From NCBI GenBank assembly GCA_003222835.1, contig QHXE01000517.1, positions 1-6,062 of the forward strand: 6,062 nt of DNA. Reading direction: 5' to 3'. Numbering within the stretch: the stretch's first letter is position 1; the number at the start of each line of letters is the position of its first letter. Shown one piece after another: positions 46 to 6,062 of the stretch. This stretch comes from Acidobacteriota bacterium (GTDB taxonomy: Bacteria > Acidobacteriota > Blastocatellia > Pyrinomonadales > Pyrinomonadaceae). The position numbers were made by a program, and so were the translations under genes. The notes beneath the pieces are model-generated. The model had not been told where the DNA came from and ran no database searches. It was given only the letters and a program-made list of their open reading frames with translations.

Positions 46-1413
46 ATGCCGAATCTTATGCAACTTCGTCTCGCCGCGCGCGAAATTTTTGATCAGACAC
101 TGCGTGCCGTTGATGCAGGCGAAGCCGTCCGTCGTGCGCTTCACTTGGAAGGATCGCGGTTGACTGTCCAGGACGCGCCGATAAACCTGGGCAATCGACG
201 TATTTATTCAATCGCCATCGGAAAAGCCGCTTTGCCGATGGCTCTTGCACTCGAAGACGTAATTGGCGAAGGGTTCATCCGTGGTCTCATCGTCGGTCCG
301 GTACGCACGCCTCCGGCGCGCAGCCCGCAGGAGGCGTGCGTACCGCCGTCTCTTTGGCAATGGTGCGAAGGCGGTCATCCATTACCAACTGAGGCAAGTT
401 TGTCGGCGGCTAAGGAAGCATTCACCTTATTGGAACGCGTCAATGACGAACGCGCAATCGTCATCTTCCTGATTTCCGGTGGCGGCTCAGCAATGCTCGA
501 ATGGCCGATTCAGGAGGACATCACTCTCGCGGATCTGCGGATGGCAAACAAAGTCCTAATAAATTGCGGCGCTTCAATTGTTGAAATCAACTCCGTCCGC
601 CAAGCGTTCTCTGCCGTCAAAGGTGGGAGATTGGCTTCGCGGGCAGCGAATTGCGATCAAATCACCCTCATCGTCTCGGACGTTCCATCAGGCCAGGAGC
701 GAAACGTCGCCTCAGGTCCCACGCTCGCGCTATCGCGCGATTCTCCAGTTCCTCAAGAAGTGATCGCTCGTTACCATCTCCGCGCCGAATTACCCGAGAC
801 AATTCTTTGCGCTATCGAGGCTGAGCCGCATGCGCCTTTCGCTTCTGACGACGATGCAAAGGCGGTGCGAGAGCATTTTGTGCTGCTCGACAACGATGAA
901 GCCATTGGCGCGGCGACGGAAACAGCACGTCGTCGCGGATTCGCTGCTGAGATCGCTGCCGACATAACCGATCAACCGATCGCGAAAGGCTCAGTTGGCC
1001 TGATTCACAAGCTCAAACAGTTTTGCCAAAGCTCAGGTTCGCCGGTCTCCAGTCCTACCTGCCTGATCTCAGGAGGAGAGTTTGCTTGCCCGGTAAATGG
1101 AAACGGCATCGGTGGACGAAATCAGGAAACCGCATTGCGACTGGCGCTTGAAAGCGAAAACCCAGCTCAAGAGTCAACACCAATGACCTTTGTCGCGCTT
1201 TGCGCCGGCACGGATGGTATCGACGGTAATAGTCCCGCAGCCGGCGCTATCGTTGACAGCACTACGATTCAGCGTGCCCGCGCAATCGGCCTCGACCCGG
1301 AGGACTTTCTCAAGCGCAGCGACGCTTATTCTTTCTTTGTCGCGCTCGGCGATGCAATCACAACGGGCGCCACCGGGACGAACGTGCGCGATATCCGAAT
1401 CCTGCTGGCCTAG
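46..1413 (+). CDS. Glycerate 2-kinase (GckA/TtuD type, DUF4147 + MOFRL domains)
   Basis: Predicted cytosolic kinase converting D-glycerate and ATP to 2-phosphoglycerate, feeding glycerate from glyoxylate, serine or sugar-acid breakdown into lower glycolysis. Seen in the 455-residue product: an N-terminal GKAALPMA block (59-66), the glycine-rich FLISGGGSAM (141-150), NSVRQAFSAVKGGRLA (182-197) and SDVPSGQERNVASGPT (211-226), typical of the DUF4147 domain; then a C-terminal MOFRL domain with LISGGEF (340-346), GGRNQETALRLAL (356-368) and CAGTDGIDGNSPAAGA (386-401). Both domains are complete, so the gene looks functional. The ATG at 46 is preferred over the in-frame ATG at 58 because a weak GAGTG (37-41) precedes it; the choice is not firm. 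Odd point: residues 85-100 are encoded by a perfect palindrome (see 299-345) between the Rossmann-like start and the conserved GGHPLP (109-114). No terminator is evident after the stop. Confidence 0.95.
   Translation: MPNLMQLRLAAREIFDQTLRAVDAGEAVRRALHLEGSRLTVQDAPINLGNRRIYSIAIGKAALPMALALEDVIGEGFIRGLIVGPVRTPPARSPQEACVPPSLWQWCEGGHPLPTEASLSAAKEAFTLLERVNDERAIVIFLISGGGSAMLEWPIQEDITLADLRMANKVLINCGASIVEINSVRQAFSAVKGGRLASRAANCDQITLIVSDVPSGQERNVASGPTLALSRDSPVPQEVIARYHLRAELPETILCAIEAEPHAPFASDDDAKAVREHFVLLDNDEAIGAATETARRRGFAAEIAADITDQPIAKGSVGLIHKLKQFCQSSGSPVSSPTCLISGGEFACPVNGNGIGGRNQETALRLALESENPAQESTPMTFVALCAGTDGIDGNSPAAGAIVDSTTIQRARAIGLDPEDFLKRSDAYSFFVALGDAITTGATGTNVRDIRILLA
299..345. repeat. REP-like palindrome inserted in frame in the glycerate kinase gene
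   Basis: Two perfect 16-base inverted arms, CGGTACGCACGCCTCC (299-314) and GGAGGCGTGCGTACCG (330-345), flank a 15-base GC-rich loop in which GCG (316-318) can pair with CGC (326-328). The whole would fold as a very stable hairpin in DNA or mRNA. It is read without a stop and encodes about residues 85-100 of the kinase (VRTPPARSPQEACVP is its core), rich in Pro, Arg and Cys and unlike the surrounding protein. The codon triplet CCG occurs at 298-300 and again at 346-348, which could be a short target duplication or chance. The size and shape suit a REP/RAYT-type or other small palindromic repeat; the family name is not established here. No second copy lies in the window. Confidence 0.85.
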
Positions 1414-5438: not shown

Positions 5439-6062
5439 TCAACCGCTGAGATGAACTACCGTTTCCACGTGATGCGTCTGTGGGAACATATCAAATGCGG
5501 CGAGAGAGTCAAGAGTGTAGCCGCCGGCGATAAGCTTTTTCAGGTCGCGTGCGAGCGTTGCTGGATCGCAGGATACATAGCAGATTCGCTTGGGCCTTAA
5601 TCTTAGGATGGCGTTGATGACGCGCGACTCAGCGCCGGTGCGCGGCGGATCGAGGAGCAGAAAATCCGGTCTTCGGAGTGCGGCGACAGCGGCGCCGCTT
5701 TTGATCTGGGGAGATTGAGATAAGCCTGATTCTCGCTGGTTCTTGCGACTACGATCCAAAGCGCCATCGTTGCCGGCGCACTCCAAAGTTTCCAGCCAGT
5801 TGGCAACATCTTTGTTTGCAATCTTCGCGTTCGCTAAACCGGCATTTGCCAGATTCTTTCGCGCAAAACGCTCAGCAGCCTCATTGGATTCGACACTAAT
5901 CAAATCAGTGAACCGCCGTGCCAATGGAAGCGTAAACAGACCAACGCCGGAGTAAAGCTCGATGGCCGTCTCACCAGCAGCTTCGCCAAGCGCGGCCTCG
6001 ATTAGCGGCGGGAGCAAGTCAGCATTCGTTTGAAAGAAACTCTCGGCATTCAGGCTGTACAC
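5439..6062 (-). CDS. rlmD: 23S rRNA (uracil-C5)-methyltransferase, TrmA/RlmC/RlmD family, 5' end outside window
   Basis: C-terminal 207 residues of an SAM-dependent enzyme that methylates a uracil at C5 in 23S rRNA. The window cuts the gene; its first codon here (GTG) is internal, and the TRAM and N-terminal domains lie outside. Seen: SFFQTN (8-13), the SAM-binding IELYSGVGLFTLPLA (34-48), VESN (57-60), LLDPPRTG (136-143), VSCDPATLARDL (163-174) with catalytic Cys165, and the terminal FPQTHHVETVVHL (193-205) with the likely base Glu200. These motifs make the family secure; whether the target is U1939, U747 or a tRNA site cannot be told, so the symbol is provisional. Odd point: residues 92-131, between the strand ending NWLE and RPDFLLLDPP, come from an inserted inverted-repeat element (5671-5788). 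Homologues usually connect these blocks with a short loop. All catalytic motifs survive. comEC follows after 9 bases. Confidence 0.92.
   Translation of the reverse strand: MYSLNAESFFQTNADLLPPLIEAALGEAAGETAIELYSGVGLFTLPLARRFTDLISVESNEAAERFARKNLANAGLANAKIANKDVANWLETLECAGNDGALDRSRKNQRESGLSQSPQIKSGAAVAALRRPDFLLLDPPRTGAESRVINAILRLRPKRICYVSCDPATLARDLKKLIAGGYTLDSLAAFDMFPQTHHVETVVHLSG
5671..5788. mobile_element. MITE-like inverted-repeat element inserted in frame in the rRNA methyltransferase gene
   Basis: The ends at 5671-5706 and 5753-5788 are imperfect inverted repeats of each other: comparing 36 positions by eye, 29 match, with no gap needed. Outer blocks CTTYGGAGTGCG and inner blocks CGCTTTNGATC are best conserved. 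The left copy also holds a perfect 12-base palindrome AGCGGCGCCGCT (5688-5699). A 46-base core (5707-5752) shows no gene. Together they form a 118-base element read through on the - strand as about residues 92-131 of the methyltransferase, rich in Ala, Gly, Ser, Arg and Gln. A second - strand frame is also open across it. No transposase is encoded, so it would be a non-autonomous element. A target duplication is not clear at either edge. A GGAGTGCGGCGAC-type terminal repeat seems familiar from Acidobacteriota or Verrucomicrobiota genomes, but that is recollection only. Confidence 0.8.

Follow-up and report, generated by a model that had tools for sequence, protein, structure and literature searches.

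Introduction

The REPIN/RAYT systems, as described in the available portions of the papers that treat them (PMC3116915, PMC2817692, PMC8266576, PMC3686654, PMC6006769), combine dispersed elements made of two inverted hairpin units and a variable spacer with an HUH/Tyr transposase gene that is bracketed by the same units; the elements lie mostly outside genes, show no target-site duplication, and have units headed by GT(A/G)G. According to the available text of PMC3733652, GTAG and CGTC REP dimers also occur in frame in conserved genes, where they encode 20-30 residues, most of them in Opitutus terrae and Rickettsia conorii, and REPs are found at about one site in recB of two Xanthomonas species. 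In Rickettsia, conserved proteins contain in-frame fusions of RPE, palindromes 105-146 bases long, and an RPE-bearing guanylate kinase is reported, in work cited there, to be translated and active with a changed substrate affinity (PMC2229807, in its available portion); no link of RPE to a transposase is given in the available parts of PMC2229807 and PMC3733652. In the excerpts available, Acidobacteria come up only where TIRYT or class 3 proteins are ascribed to them and in a single table of genomes (PMC12306157). Inverted repeats lie on either side of their TIRYT, which are Tyr transposases, and some of these repeats make up families (Koribacter); the source regards them as having no relation to REPs (PMC3733652, in part). 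In-frame palindromic inserts are already catalogued; their fate is rarely visible.

The locus analyzed here lies in a window of 6,062 nucleotides (the whole stretch of DNA under study), in which a palindromic element sits in frame within a gene for an RlmD-like rRNA methyltransferase. The repeat family of this element resembles REPIN/RAYT, as far as the sources above describe it, in that it forms dispersed pairs of inverted hairpin units with a variable spacer, is for the most part extragenic in G117, the one genome counted, shows no target-site duplication and, in relatives, brackets an HUH/Tyr transposase gene, but its head is TTTGGAGT rather than GT(A/G)G. Given this head, the element works like a REPIN but is not filed as a canonical GTAG REP. 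With the intragenic REPs of PMC3733652, to the extent that their description is available, it shares the form of REP dimers set in frame within conserved genes; the window's family differs in carrying neither a GTAG nor a CGTC tag at its edges, and here one loop could be traced through 127 homologous rows in which the insert is intact, eroded, swapped or absent. The likeness to RPE, in-frame palindromic inserts in conserved genes (here RlmD and ThiC), is one of form, and the window's family differs in going with a clade of RAYT; from the TIRYT repeats it is set apart by their description.

An earlier reading of the window made from its letters alone (the sequence-only reading) had drawn the Rickettsia comparison, aptly, and had proposed that the family might be undescribed. 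In-gene REPs of 20-30 residues are already known in other phyla (PMC3733652, in its available text); in the literature searched, which included few subscription papers, and in the portions of it that were available, we found no description of the window's repeat family or of RlmD inserts.

We put a probability of roughly 85% on the reading that the feature is a REPIN-like doublet, moved by a RAYT, that landed in a surface loop of RlmD with the frame kept and was then inherited, eroded, lost or swapped. On this reading REP-like doublets and their cognate transposase, under a head that is not GTAG, occur in a group of Acidobacteriota as well, and the RlmD loop would be a readable record of mobile DNA becoming protein.

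Results and Discussion

An inverted repeat in frame within an RlmD-like gene

The features of the locus are as follows.

5439..6062, minus strand: C-terminal 207 residues of an RlmD-like 23S rRNA (uracil-C5) methyltransferase (ORF, PF05958, relatives, fold)
5667..5792, minus strand: codons of a 42-residue insert region (ETLECAGNDG...AALRRP) between VANWL and DFLLLDPP (alignments, AF2)
5671..5788, no strand assigned: REP doublet (REPIN-like element), two inverted REP-like units and a spacer (inverted-pair search, fold, library alignment)
5672..5706, plus strand: unit 2, the inverted copy, with one T to C change in the head (inverted-pair search; weaker matches in relatives)
5707..5752, no strand assigned: spacer of 46 bases separating the two units (repeat search; unit distances vary among G117 copies)
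5753..5787, minus strand: unit 1, with a TTTGGAGT head, a GCGCCGGC..GATGGCGC hairpin and a TTTGGATC tail (matches in G002 and G117)

The N-terminal part of the RlmD-like gene lies beyond the edge of the window. Its protein matched PF05958 in Pfam, a fold comparison placed RumA/RlmD of E. coli with its rRNA substrate (2bh2) closest among solved structures, and the nearest relatives are MAGs that bear the names Acidobacteria gp4, Blastocatellia or Pyrinomonadaceae. A relative was encoded in 180 of 257 matched stretches, of which 80 were kept, and the window was aligned with 34 of these loci; its loop ahead of FLLLDPPR is the longest in that alignment. The best match, L001 (UBA11740), has a smaller insert at the same loop, and given that the order RlmD, ComEC, cysteine dioxygenase is common to both (ORF translations), the two RlmD genes appear, by position, to be orthologs. 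Between ComEC and cysteine dioxygenase the window also has a PemK/MazF-like toxin gene (PF02452; 2114-2700, minus strand) with a small gene upstream of it that has no Pfam match and is perhaps an antitoxin; no listed ORF of the PemK/MazF kind lies between these genes in L001. A search of viral contigs with the RlmD homologue P0034 gave no match.

The two arms, 5671-5706 and 5753-5788, pair at 28 of 36 positions around the 46-base core; the sequence-only reading had placed both arms and core correctly and had counted 29 matches. This is the best 36-base inverted pair in the window with a core of at most 120 bases (the runner-up has 24 matches). A default repeat search over 5500-6062 listed nothing, probably because it demands an exact seed of 9; the pair was found by a whole-window search with a shorter seed. 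On the coding strand the element folds at -51.2 kcal/mol (z -3.0), a value reached by 1 of 200 shuffles, and an Rfam search of the window gave nothing at gathering score. When aligned at the DNA level with 39 REP doublets collected from related genomes, the element scored 64, the best of 60 shuffles scoring 28.

Folding is frequent in GC-rich coding DNA, and one could therefore suppose a palindrome that arose by chance or was driven by the protein, with no mobile DNA involved. The maximum in 600 first-order Markov windows was, however, 26 matches, below the 28 of the real arms, and the right arm recurs in relatives at up to 95% over 37 bases; we regard the chance origin as having next to no likelihood.

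The RlmD-like frame runs open across the element, as had been claimed, and the event is an in-frame insertion of a REP doublet. From 5671 to 5788 two of three frames are open on the minus (coding) strand and none of three on the plus strand, so that the earlier statement of openness in at least two frames holds for the former strand and fails for the latter. The encoded peptide falls, as described there, in the loop just ahead of the LLDPPR strand with the flanking motifs kept (alignment), and VANWL and DFLLLDPP are separated by 42 residues here versus 7-12 in the 13 rows without an insert. AF2 modeled the protein from 65 sequences with a mean pLDDT of 84 (at least 90 for 135 of 207 residues), and the insert segment lies in the model between a helix ending at residue 97 and a strand at 134-137. 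Mean pLDDT for blocks 91-100, 101-110, 111-120 and 121-130 is 71, 53, 53 and 55, and the insert loop is thus predicted to be disordered, adjoining a well-predicted fold.

Dispersal of the repeat in relatives

Recurrence of the repeat was counted in the genomes of relatives. The window's 118 bases matched 15 places in three of five such genomes, with the right arm involved each time, and gave 28 rows in five of seven further genomes, a count in which palindromic places may appear twice. The best match to unit 1 is 95% over 37 bases (G117:C9:38789), with 92% over 36 bases in G002, and the arm of unit 2 has weaker matches in G092, G105, G117 and G118. Of the 119 genomes in the bacterial family of G003, 25 have the exact core TTTGGAGTGCGSCG, the six richest having 98, 70, 69, 66, 48 and 44 sites and four having one site each, versus 0-2 per genome for a reversed control pattern. 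The window's repeat is therefore a dispersed, non-autonomous palindromic repeat whose family is found in relatives from Acidobacteriota (Pyrinomonadaceae, by the names of the relatives). The sequence-only reading had named two findings that would speak against a mobile element, ends confined to the window and homologues sharing an alignable loop of one length; instead the ends recur in relatives' genomes, and the homologue loops range from 7 to 56 residues with no common length.

From the 98 exact copies in G117 the repeat unit is a sharply bounded, imperfect palindrome about 29 bases long, TTTGGAGTGCGGCGAC-TTG-TCGCCGCTTT, with flanks that are near random apart from a weak A/T preference at the two bases preceding the head. 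The TTTGGAGT head is common to the window, to these 98 copies (which were selected by that head) and to the copies that flank RAYT genes. With a slightly looser pattern that allows one mismatch, G117 has 101 elements, 67 of them inverted doublets and 34 single units, and the unit-to-unit distance differs among copies. Target-site duplication was absent in the 65 doublets compared, where matching stretches of 2-8 bases (offsets 0-3) stayed within the range of shuffled controls.

Association with a RAYT-like transposase clade

In the first five relatives' genomes, 30 of 62 Y1_Tnp matches were taken as loci, and a single one of these 30, L110 in G003, has the window's repeat on both sides in inverted copies. 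The transposases of its clade scored close to the Pfam Y1_Tnp cut-off of 23 bits (G002 21.9, G003 22.3, G001 25.8). With the L110 protein as query, and among the matches listed, 78 of the 119 genomes have a match and 12 have a member of a close RAYT-like (HUH/Tyr) clade with at least 49% identity; the next listed match of comparable length is at 34%, with short fragments of 40% (G093) and 42% (G096) falling between the clade and the distant proteins. Clade membership was taken from the matches listed and is perhaps undercounted.

Across these relatives' genomes the repeat goes with the clade. At least four repeat sites are present in all 12 genomes with the clade and in 8 of the 107 others (among the matches listed; Fisher p 1.3e-11, indicative only, because the genomes are related), and all 12 clade loci hold the window's repeat family at up to two mismatches. 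In the eight clade loci where both the HUH and Tyr motifs could be placed, a copy lies upstream in 8/8, 249-331 bases ahead of the HUH motif, and an inverted copy lies downstream in 7/8, the exception being L122, where the downstream copy is direct. Among 18 distant RAYT loci the exact core was found in none and one two-mismatch match was found in three. The association of the RAYT clade with the repeat family was thus directly observed in relatives. The clade motifs, NHYH and YVH[RQ]NP, match exactly no row of the available part of the table in PMC6006769.

Other palindromes that start with TTTGGAGT lie at several of the distant loci. In L135, L145 and L147, which belong to the same bacterial family, distant RAYT genes have palindromes of other kinds beside them (TTTGGAGTTCCGCCTTTAGGCGG in L145 is one), and this suggests several RAYT/repeat pairs with related heads.

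The sequence-only reading had described a mobile, non-autonomous, MITE-like repeat. Its dispersed, non-autonomous and palindromic character was borne out; the classical MITE was not, the element behaving as a REP doublet of the type associated with RAYT. A MITE of a DDE insertion sequence would account for terminal inverted repeats, a length of about 120 bases and dispersal, but is hard to reconcile with 65 doublets that have no target-site duplication, with Y1-type transposase genes bracketed by the repeat, and with single units as common as 34 of 101 in G117, and we consider it very improbable.

We favor instead a mechanism in which a RAYT/TnpAREP-type single-strand transposase would recognize the hairpins and copy or move the doublet with no target-site duplication, the RAYT of the clade being the presumed agent. 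One or a few doublets would have landed, in ancestors of the window's clade, in the surface loop preceding the RlmD strand LLDPPR, where frame and motifs could be kept because the arms are stop-free in the coding frame and the loop faces away from the fold. The insert, presumably translated and tolerated near-neutrally, would then have been inherited, worn, lost, and in places exchanged for another subtype.

The RlmD loop across homologues

A protein search with the L001 enzyme returned 7961 homologues among 7999 scored candidates, and the best 120 were used. Omitting P0041 and P0056, which have no DPPR motif, from the tree set left 118, which with the window and eight genome loci make up the 127 rows. 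Inserts were classed by regular expression and then by hand. By this procedure the insert is REP-derived (intact, eroded or swapped) in 107 rows, absent in 13 and unclear in 7; the uninterrupted version that the sequence-only reading had suggested looking for among homologues thus exists. The classes are as follows.

Class A, 30 rows: REP peptide LECGGRAQRRRRFGS..IQSAVAAGALQ
Class V, 9 rows: class A peptide with a longer hairpin loop
Class D, 13 rows: REP peptide MECGDLSPLSEKRRQVAALQ
Class T, 4 rows: REP peptide LECGGLTPLS..KKRRQAGALQ
Class W, 5 rows: the window's type, with both arms kept in the window only
Classes E (20), Dr (18) and K (8), 46 rows: apparently eroded; read by us as remnants

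The intact classes have a common site and a common reading frame. On a tree built with the insert columns excluded, insert versus no insert requires seven changes, of which the starred branches alone force only four, and classes A, V, T, D and W require 15. A starred 31-row clade has 23 A, 4 V and 4 T rows, the T rows forming two pairs at two places within it, and class V is scattered on the tree (116 of 500 shuffles are as low). Turnover of the RlmD insert on the tree was thus observed.

RlmD matches were found in 103 of the 119 genomes, and loops were read at 30 loci. At the DNA level, against the 39 REP doublets, remnants were detected at the RlmD site in G001 (score 53; best of 60 shuffles 27) and G004 (39; 24), and the loops of G002, G003, G117 and G119 did not score above shuffles. 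All four genomes have both repeat and RAYT, yet in G002, G003 and G119 RlmD is free of an insert. The match in G118 spans residues 2-194 only, with the loop outside it. Class Dr, tested in one genome (G117), was not above shuffles (26 versus 29), and on our reading its putative REP origin is based on peptide similarity and a place in the tree beside class D.

Such a series, in which one loop presents no insert, intact subtypes, swapped subtypes, arm-only remnants and near-erased stretches over 127 rows, would let rates of gain, erosion and loss be measured, along with selection on arms versus spacer.

Two further observations concern RlmD loops. The inserts of P0044, P0089, P0100 and P0107 seemingly contain a second partial REP peptide in tandem (e.g. 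GALQKAAALQ), as if hit twice. A third repeat, GGCAGTAGCCCGACCGTGAGGGAGGGC, which contains GTAG and encodes GSSPTVREG, lies in a different RlmD loop of G097 (L265) and beside a REP-like unit in L200 (G117); it has ten further matches in other loci, one of which, L016, is the same gene as L265.

Possible constraint on arms and spacer

Within the 31-row clade, which was delimited from the core tree with the insert playing no part, the first 16 residues of the insert have an identity of 0.57-0.61 and the last 12 of 0.64-0.72 at every level of core divergence, versus 0.15-0.31 for the middle. Ends that stay alike around a randomized middle hint at constraint. Given that the ends are spared, unlike what plain neutral erosion of one insert would give, the arms may either be selected, as peptide or as hairpin, or be rewritten by genomic repeats. 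The 37 A and V rows show a sharper contrast, one that is partly circular because the rows were picked by their arms: arm identity averages 0.70-0.86 where core identity is at least 0.75, and spacer identity falls from 0.52 (9 pairs, core at least 0.90) to 0.23 (57 pairs, core 0.80-0.85). The spacer has 13 residues in 16 of these rows and 17 in 6, recurrent lengths that look like inheritance.

In the case of selection, the arms would serve the enzyme or its mRNA, for instance through RNA contacts of the Arg-rich RAQRRRR stretch or through a translation or stability signal in the hairpin, and the "exapted" loop of the sequence-only reading, sound as regards the in-frame insertion, would hold for function as well. 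The conserved ends in the 31-row clade, and the A and V rows likewise, are what this predicts. However, rewriting by genomic repeats predicts the identical pattern, the test covers one clade with the A and V comparison partly circular, 13 of the 127 rows lack the insert while 46 are classed as eroded, and such peptides were taken up by loops of ThiC and glycerate kinase too; we therefore think a selected function unlikely.

It is somewhat easier to envisage, though still doubtful, that the insert has been repeatedly overwritten or exchanged by genomic repeats, through gene conversion or re-insertion, so that it tracks the current subtypes. The two T pairs at separate places in one clade, the scatter of V and the 15 class changes argue for this, as do P0017 and P0018, which have similar spacers (0.59) and unlike left units. 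On the other hand, the starred branches alone are compatible with a single origin of T, and the spacer identity of 0.52 in the closest pairs fits plain inheritance as well.

Tolerance with turnover remains our main reading of the RlmD insert, and selection or rewriting would be the novel case. A broader proposal, that this loop of a housekeeping enzyme has served mobile DNA as a lasting niche, where from one or a few initial insertions onward the arms stayed in frame within a clade while its cores diverged by 20-30% and the spacer was randomized, whether through peptide or hairpin function or through rewriting, is one we advance tentatively; if true, it would open to direct test a way for a selfish palindrome to become part of a protein.

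Inserts in other genes

In G117, 32 of the 101 elements lie in open frames with at least 30 codons on each side, and 10 of the 32 were run through Pfam, 3 of these 10 being without a family. The domain match spans the insert in two proteins, ThiC (L229) and a DinB_2/FGE-sulfatase protein (L200) that we take to be EgtB-like; in L207 and L253 the insert precedes the domains. The 101 elements, with 10 of 32 candidate frames run, thus include two firm in-gene inserts (ThiC and L200) and one possible one (L184), and most elements lie outside recognizable genes. The genes of the L211 phosphoesterase and the L252 glycosyltransferase, which came up in G117 with one mismatch allowed, showed no sign of an insert and were not counted.

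The ThiC loop was compared across 30 loci. In G117 it holds, in frame within the ThiC domain, a doublet of the window's family, in G003 (ALECGGLTPLCND) and G095 (HLECGDLSPLS...) single or partial units of that family, and in G118 and G119 DNA of a second, unrelated repeat family (GGTACGC...GCGTACC). One ThiC loop has thus, by the inserts in these five genomes, taken two repeat families.

The window itself has a second case.

46..1413, plus strand: glycerate kinase-like gene (DUF4147 and MOFRL; ORF, Pfam), which holds the second repeat
299..345, no strand assigned: second inverted repeat, of the GGAGGCGTGCGTAC family, with arms of 23 bases, 21 of them matching, in a loop of the glycerate kinase

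Sites of the GGAGGCGTGCGTAC family were found in 7 of the 119 genomes, including 39 in G119, 14 in G003 and 12 in G118, versus 0-1 for a reversed control; this is the family whose DNA also lies in the ThiC loop of G118 and G119. The window and G118, whose protein is 77% identical, have a GGAGGCGTGCGTAC doublet in the same loop, and seven other genomes have unrelated residues there (L326, L287 and L289 are among the loci concerned). The repeat at 299..345 is the same kind of event as the RlmD insert. A separate inverted repeat of 87%, at 2-24 and 68-90, straddles the point where the glycerate kinase gene begins.
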